NCBI RefSeq assembly: GCF_900102375.1
Contig: NZ_FNBO01000004.1
Coordinates: 62,001-126,000, forward strand
DNA from: Halorubrum xinjiangense
GTDB taxonomy: Archaea > Halobacteriota > Halobacteria > Halobacteriales > Haloferacaceae
Direction of reading: 5' to 3'
DNA: 64,000 nucleotides
Each line of letters opens with the position of its first letter. Position 1 is the stretch's first letter. This document shows positions 6,130 to 49,518 of the stretch, piece after piece. The position numbers and the translations under genes are program-made. The notes under the pieces were generated by a model, which worked only from the letters and a program-made list of their open reading frames with translations, was not told the DNA's origin and did no database searches.

Positions 6130-6436
6130 TTTATAAATGATATGCGGTGGCGCGTGCCGACGAGCGGCCATCGGCCGCGAGTCGCACGCGCGAGGGAGTC
6201 AGTCGCCGGAGCGAAGCGGAGGCGACTGACGAGGCTGGGGAGGCGTGAGGCGCGGTTGCTGTGCGGGGCGGGACTCAAAGGGGCAGTCGGGAGGCGGGCG
6301 CAGGCGATGCAAGCACCACAACGAGGGAGCGAACGAAGTGAGTGACCGAGTGAGGAGCGCAGCGAGCGTGCGCCCGCCTCCCGACTGGGGCTTTGGCGGT
6401 GGTCACCGCCGATTTACTGGCGGTTATTTATAAGTG
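6130..6436 (-). repeat. Structured intergenic element, copy 1 (reverse orientation)
   Basis: One of three related elements of about 300 nt in this window. Reading the minus strand it starts with CTTATAAATAA and ends with ATTTATAAAC, both TATA-like. Conserved blocks shared with the other copies include CAAAGCCCCAG, TGCCCCTTTGAGTCCCGCC, CCTCCCCAGCCTCGTC and CGCGCCACCGCA. Stem A is a perfect 18-bp inverted repeat (6285-6302 with 6369-6386). Stem B pairs 6198-6207 with 6221-6230. Stem C has an outer helix 6150-6157/6184-6191 and an inner helix 6164-6169/6173-6178. No protein-coding frame is convincing. It sits between the dehydrogenase gene and the ribosomal operon promoter. Confidence 0.85.
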
Positions 6437-6655: not shown

Positions 6656-6741
6656 GTTGCGGTAGCCAAGCCTGGCCCAAGGCGCAGGGTTGCTAACTCT
6701 GTGGCGTCACTGCCTCCGGGGTTCGAATCCCCGCCGCAACG
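6656..6741 (+). tRNA. tRNA-Ser (GCT)
   Basis: An 86-nt class II tRNA with acceptor stem GTTGCGG/CCGCAAC, anticodon loop TTGCTAA (anticodon GCT), a long variable arm (GTGGCGTCACTGCCTC) and T arm GGGGTTCGAATCCCC. The discriminator base is G, as expected for serine. It lies 55 bp upstream of the S13 gene on the same strand. Confidence 0.95.
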
Positions 6742-27765: not shown

Positions 27766-28062
27766 CTTATAAATAGCTGACAGTGGATCGATGGCGAACA
27801 CCTCCAAAGCCCCAGCCACGAGGGCCGCGCACACTCGTTGCGCTCCTCGCTCGCGCTGCTCGCTGCGGTGCTTACGTCGTCTGCGCGGCCCTCGCGGCTG
27901 CCCCTTTGAGTCCCGCCCCGCACGGCACCGCAGCCTCGCGCCTCCCCAGCCTCGTCAGTCGCCTCCGCTTCGCTCCGGCGACTGACTCCCTCGCACGCGC
28001 TCCACGCGGCCGCCGAGGGCGGCCGCTCGGAGGCGCGCGCCACCGCAGTTCTATTTATAAAT
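27766..28062 (+). repeat. Structured intergenic element, copy 2
   Basis: Second copy of the roughly 300-nt element. It begins with CTTATAAATAG and ends with ATTTATAAATG. Conserved blocks CAAAGCCCCAGCC, GTGCTTACGTCG, TGCCCCTTTGAGTCCCGCC, CCTCCCCAGCCTCGTC and CGCGCCACCGCA occur in the same order as in copies 1 and 3. Stem A pairs 27814-27831 with 27882-27899 (17 of 18). Stem B pairs 27954-27963 with 27977-27986. Stem C has inner helix 28006-28014/28018-28026 and a weaker outer helix 27993-28000/28033-28040. No reading frame is conserved between copies. It lies upstream of the DgcN-like gene; the rest of the 27713-28167 gap holds only short flanking sequence. Confidence 0.87.
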
Positions 28063-49058: not shown

Positions 49059-49215
49059 TTTGAGGAATGTGACTCCGTTTTCCCGTCGATTGTGGCCGCT
49101 ACTTATAAATGGGCAGTTGGGTACAGATTGAGCGTGCTCCCGAACCCCCAGCCGCTCGCTTATAAGTGACTGATAGCGGATCAGCGGCAAACACCGCCAA
49201 AGCCCCAGCCGCTCG
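49059..49215 (+). repeat. Tandem 5' modules preceding element copy 3
   Basis: Partial units of the structured element lie ahead of copy 3. The phrase GCCGCT followed by a TTATAA box recurs at 49095, 49151 and 49208 (spacings 56 and 57). The two last units both carry CGGCAAACACC and CCAAAGCCCCAGCC. The first unit is diverged. Only the last unit continues into a complete element. Confidence 0.75.
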
Positions 49216-49518
49216 TTTATAAGTAGTTGCCGGTGGAGCGGCGGCAAACACCTCCAAAGCCCCAGCCGCGAGGCCGCAGTACGCTCGCTGCGCTCCTCGG
49301 TCGCAAACTTCGTTCGCTCCCTGCGGTGCTTACGTCGCCTACTGCGGCCTCGCGGCTGCCCCTTTGAGTCCCGCCCCGCACGGCACCGTCCAGCACCTCA
49401 CGCCTCCCCAGCCTCGTCGCGGCCGCTTAAAAGCGGCCGCGACTCCCTCGCGCGTGCGGTTCGCGCCGCGGTGCGGCGCTCACCGGCACGCGCCACCGCA
49501 CAGCACTCATATATAAAC
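49216..49518 (+). repeat. Structured intergenic element, copy 3
   Basis: Third copy, bounded by TTTATAAGTAG and ATATATAAAC. Conserved blocks CAAAGCCCCAGCC, GTGCTTACGTCGCC, TGCCCCTTTGAGTCCCGCC, CCTCCCCAGCCTCGTC and CGCGCCACCGCA appear in order. Stem A pairs 49264-49281 with 49340-49357 (18 of 18), stem B 49419-49428 with 49431-49440 (10 of 10, sequence wholly different from copies 1 and 2), stem C outer 49450-49457/49486-49493 and inner 49463-49469/49473-49479. It lies 60 bp upstream of the VLRF1-like gene. Confidence 0.88.

Follow-up and report, generated by a model that had tools for sequence, protein, structure and literature searches.

Covarying three-hairpin elements dispersed through halobacterial chromosomes, possibly acting as folded single-stranded DNA

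Introduction

Integron attC sites are recognised as a folded single strand whose structure is kept despite varying sequence, and they lie in gene-cassette arrays beside the integrase. REP and BIME repeats are intergenic palindromes that number more than 100 per genome, are mosaic and species-variable, and have one strand that folds as hairpins; the element described here shares these properties. It also resembles the PATEs of Haloquadratum walsbyi (PMC3119063) in being haloarchaeal, non-coding, palindromic, heterogeneous in sequence and targeted by other small elements. PATEs, however, have IS605-like ends and strain-specific insertions, whereas the present element keeps orthologous sites between species.

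The window analysed is a 64,000-nucleotide stretch of contig 4 of a 3.26-Mb Halorubrum genome (G000), in which an initial annotation reported three structured intergenic copies. They belong to a class-wide family that has apparently not been described before. No published description was found in the open-access literature covered, comprising a Haloquadratum mobile-element paper, an HF2 promoter-repeat paper, REP surveys, a 104-RNA survey and a text search with the core sequence. We give roughly an even chance to the view that the family spans the Halobacteria and consists of dispersed intergenic chromosomal elements acting as folded single-stranded DNA (ssDNA).

Results and Discussion

Copies in the window and element anatomy

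Copies had been annotated at 6130-6436 (minus strand), 27766-28062 and 49216-49518, and all are present there (c1, c2 and c3). The locations are right, but the left 57-bp TATA-containing unit included in them is a lineage-specific addition outside the A-B-C core. The c3 core occupies 49255-49500; it folds on the minus strand of the window, reading 5' C-B-A 3', and its linkers are common to more than 200 copies, a conservation that is partly ascertainment because copies were gathered by linker matching. Stem A pairs the arm AGCCGCGAGGCCGCAGTA (49264-49281; closing CAAAG at 49255-49259) with a partner at 49340-49357 (closing CTTTG at 49362-49366, within the conserved core 49356-49381). Stem B is a perfect palindrome, GTCGCGGCCGCTTAAAAGCGGCCGCGAC (49416-49443), and stem C (49450-49493) is followed by CACCGC. 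Two 57-bp units with TTATAAGT boxes form the left flank (49146-49254).

The c2 core (27805-28047) likewise folds on the window minus strand. Its stem A arms (27814-27831 and 27882-27899) form the annotated 17-pair stem, in which the lone A-C non-pair of the annotated strand becomes a G-T wobble on the folded strand, and its stem B (GTCAGTCGCC...GGCGACTGAC, 27954-27986) has a GAA triloop on the folded strand. The c1 core (6143-6395) folds on the window plus strand, with stem A arms at 6369-6386 and 6285-6302 and stem B at 6198-6230; a tRNA gene lies about 260 bp away at 6656-6741. The stem A arms match those originally quoted, and stem B is, as annotated, shared without change by c1 and c2, whereas c3 has an entirely different but perfectly paired one. 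A covariance model of the A domain, trained with c1 but not c2 or c3, found the three copies (E = 2e-24, 9e-22 and 4e-20) as the sole real matches in the window, the next best being 0.24. DNA folding of each copy was better than all 200 dinucleotide shuffles (z -4.7 to -6.8).

The element is about 250 bp long and non-coding, with three hairpins separated by conserved unpaired linkers. Read on the annotated strand, it begins with one to several 57-bp units carrying a TTATAAAT box, then CAAAG-CCCC, stem-loop A, GCCCCTTTG-AGTCCCGCCC, a linker ending in CCTCCCCAGCCTC, stem B, TCCCTCGC, stem C and CACCGC. The conserved boxes are SAAAG/CTTTS, which closes hairpin A, and GGGYGGGACT. Hairpin A also contains an internal loop made up of G alone and, close to the tip, tandem G-A pairs. 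In G000 copies the 57-bp left direct repeats hold a TATA-like box, number 1-5 motifs per element and repeat the 5' closing arm; TTTATAAAT is also found past many right ends. In other genera the A domain stands alone in many cases and its closing boxes are GAAAG/CTTTC, against CAAAG/CTTTG in Halorubrum, a fixed compensatory change.

Several copies depart from this plan. Lengthened A domains make up 70 of 307, and nested double-hairpin inserts of 50-150 bp occur at fixed points inside stem A loops or stem C (L002, L003, L006, L012, L013, L046, L047, L056 and others); these resemble terminal-only PATE/IS605 remnants. The apical part of hairpin A is inverted relative to the conserved closing boxes in L342 (minus), L234 and L339 (both plus) and also L155, as if the arms had recombined. 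In other genera two A domains often lie tail to tail, about 30-300 bp apart (L061, L062, L068, L074, L079, L170, L173, L201, L223).

Covariation and the folded strand

That pairing rather than sequence is conserved, as first proposed, is strongly supported. In a set of 80 A domains drawn from many genera, pairing holds in 93.8% of cells, compared with 71.2 ± 0.7% in shuffles, and 398 cells have changes on both sides (138 ± 9 shuffled). Both-side changes affect 18 of the 23 predicted pairs, and pairing falls to 23-42% when the partner columns are slid by 1-3. Because stems are replaced in blocks, part of this covariation probably comes from recombination between copies and not from point-by-point compensation alone.

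Four tests agree on the functional strand, which thus appears to be the reverse complement of the one annotated. The better fold belongs to this strand in 160 of 164 A domains and in all 106 full elements; among its internal loops of the 2x2 type, 351 of 379 are GA/GA; and the terminal loops of its B hairpins are C(GNA)G triloops in 138 of 190 (73%), compared with 2 of 190 on the opposite strand, all read with the caveat that predicted folds are biased toward purine loops. Mispairs among the outermost 12 bp of stem A, read on the annotated strand, are A-C rather than G-T by 39:10 in Halorubrum; other genera give 36:3, for a total of 75:13. The asymmetry is absent over the whole of stem A in an unconstrained alignment (79:74), and closing pair 2 has the opposite asymmetry in a few copies.

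Distribution and genomic location

The core CTGCCCCTTTGAGTCCCGCCCCGCAC, shared by c1-c3, occurs 118 times in G000 at ≤3 mismatches and not once in a reversed control. A shorter core gives 0 to 186 copies in each of 51 other Halorubrum genomes, some species having only 0-2, and other genera carry GCCCCTTTCAGTCCC instead. The covariance-model search of haloarchaeal genomes that had been proposed matched 27 of the 30 genomes listed for the order, and the A-domain model had no match in other Halobacteriota. Findings that had been named as contrary to the annotation did not appear: relatives hold many copies, their stems differ and covariation exceeds that of shuffles.

Copies in sampled genomes are nearly all on the main chromosome, and exact copies in two genomes, G105 and G119, are all on the largest contig. 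Plasmid matches amount to about 4-6 records (four of 72,556 per search, one from Streptomyces and probably a chance match); for comparison, 87 plasmid records hold a relative of one G000 TnpB. Among 2.9 million viral contigs there was one match, and a phage search gave none. The suggestion of a chromosome-organising site found no support: in two genomes spacing is random and orientation is without replichore polarity, so that replication-polarity and even-spacing models are negative there and the ordered, polar arrangement of KOPS- or parS-like sites is absent, and some species have hardly any copies.

None of the 226 copies whose neighbouring genes could be called, with an ad hoc caller, lies inside a gene. 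Halorubrum-type copies lie between convergent genes in 47 cases and divergent genes in 20, and the upstream gene is co-directional in 88 of 139. Copies in other genera have no convergent-gene bias, and no gene is a consistent neighbour. The idea that the element always serves as a promoter, 5' leader or terminator was rejected because gene orientation is mixed.

DNA or RNA

A structured RNA had been the first suggestion. The minus strand, transcribed from its own TATA box or by upstream read-through, would then be a multi-copy non-coding RNA or a 3'-UTR stability or termination element. The strand-specific fold, wobble asymmetry and GA/GA loops fit RNA equally, and the co-directional upstream genes and the TATA-like boxes beside copies in the G000 clade point the same way. 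The loops, however, are of another kind. GNRA tetraloops are common in structured RNA; none occur in B hairpins and only 0-2 per stem type, and UUCG loops are likewise wanting. Stem B is nearly free of wobbles (16, against 1496 Watson-Crick pairs), flanking TATA boxes are mostly absent from the G119 copies inspected, gene context in other genera is unbiased, and Rfam 15 has no match at gathering score. GNA loops form extraordinarily stable DNA mini-hairpins (PMC4686876). The GNA triloops, scarce GNRA loops and near wobble-free stem B thus favour folded ssDNA, and we infer that it is DNA that folds. RNA, too, is able to adopt GNA triloops and tandem G-A pairs, and on this balance an RNA reading seems unlikely.

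Evolution of the copies

Comparison of 58 G000 copies gave a best pair of 91% identity and a median of 70%; inspection revealed no inverted ends of the MITE kind. Orthologous copies are no closer to each other than paralogs. At the c3 site, 22 of 30 species have the element, always in the same orientation but with replaced stems. About 131 bp upstream of one c3 orthologue, L156 is a collapsed copy whose three stems are deleted and whose linkers are still recognisable. Of 30 species, 3 have an element at the c1 site in the annotated orientation, 2 have one farther upstream in inverted orientation and the remaining 25 lack it, so that gains occur.

Such gains, together with copy numbers from 0 to about 190 in a single genus, both orientations and exclusively intergenic positions, would suit a non-autonomous MITE- or PATE-like element moved by an IS200/IS605 or other transposase, its stems diversified by recombination after insertion. 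The nested inserts likewise recall the targeting of Haloquadratum PATEs (PMC3119063). We nevertheless consider this origin doubtful, and the freely jumping unit of the initial annotation is disfavoured, given that near-identical copies are lacking, plasmids and viruses are almost free of them and the c3 site and orientation are kept between species. Dependence on a Y1 (REP/IS200) transposase was rejected, as its presence does not track copy number: the RAYT-type enzyme (PF01797) is missing from 11 of 52 Halorubrum genomes, some with 50-97 copies, and is present where there are 0-2. An IS605 omega-RNA or transposon end was also rejected for want of similarity to TnpB/TnpA flanks; blastn of copies against the 22 TnpA/TnpB loci of G000 (16 TnpB, 6 TnpA) matched nothing beyond a neighbouring copy and a single unrelated flank. 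At L020/L093 (G000 contig 5, about 100.2-101.5 kb) a copy lies directly 3' of a TnpB gene, the sole case among the 16 TnpB loci.

The copies of a genome evolve in concert. The core variant CTTCG is found in 61 of 65 copies in G119 and 3 of 69 in G105, where CTTTG accounts for 66 of 69. The far arm is changed to match CTTCG in 19 of 19 sampled G119 copies and 0 of 20 from G105, and the closing pair is accordingly G-C in all 19 and A-T in all 20. Concerted evolution here spans the genome and includes compensation. In polyploid haloarchaea, gene conversion is reported to be efficient (PMC8223754).

It is very improbable that these are neutral quasi-palindromes whose arms are paired by hairpin-templated repair and gene conversion without a selected function, for although stems change block-wise with very few wobble intermediates and L004 and L045 have the same A with different B and C, templated repair would erase the unpaired GA/GA and all-G loops that persist class-wide, and linkers are common to different genera.

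A working model and its significance

The best reading of these data, in our analysis, would be a dispersed family of folded-ssDNA sites resembling REP/BIME. The reverse-complement strand may become single-stranded through replication, repair or supercoil-driven extrusion and would then adopt the three hairpins C-B-A with unpaired linkers between them. A putative chromosome-encoded factor would bind linkers and hairpins. New insertions may arise by rare copying, while gene conversion among copies, and among the genome copies of polyploid cells, could homogenise linkers and swap whole stems; copies that lose pairing would decay. Two observations sit less easily with folded ssDNA: a strict single-strand function should not tolerate the inverted apical parts of stem A seen in a few copies, and several species live almost without the element. 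The initial interpretation as a whole is partly supported.

The element ranks among the most abundant non-coding repeats observed on the examined Halorubrum chromosomes. It provides a natural experiment in which one fold is rewritten at scores of positions per genome, and it makes testable both genome-wide selection on the secondary structure of DNA, rather than RNA, and the homogenisation of dispersed repeats in polyploid archaea.

Comparison with known systems

In contrast to REP/BIME, the present element is archaeal and about 250 bp long, with three hairpins and long conserved linkers, and the GTAG/CGTC tag at the palindrome foot was not found in it. As in integron attC sites, the folded-strand structure is kept while the sequence varies, but the copies are single, cassette-free and dispersed at random spacing. 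We tentatively suggest, at rather less than even likelihood, a new class of archaeal site: a folded-ssDNA substrate with sequence-free stems and conserved linkers, used by a putative chromosome-encoded recombination or replication factor, its copies synchronised by gene conversion. On our analysis the family would work like REP/BIME or other folded-ssDNA sites, yet it stands apart from each of them in tag, Y1 transposase or cassette array.
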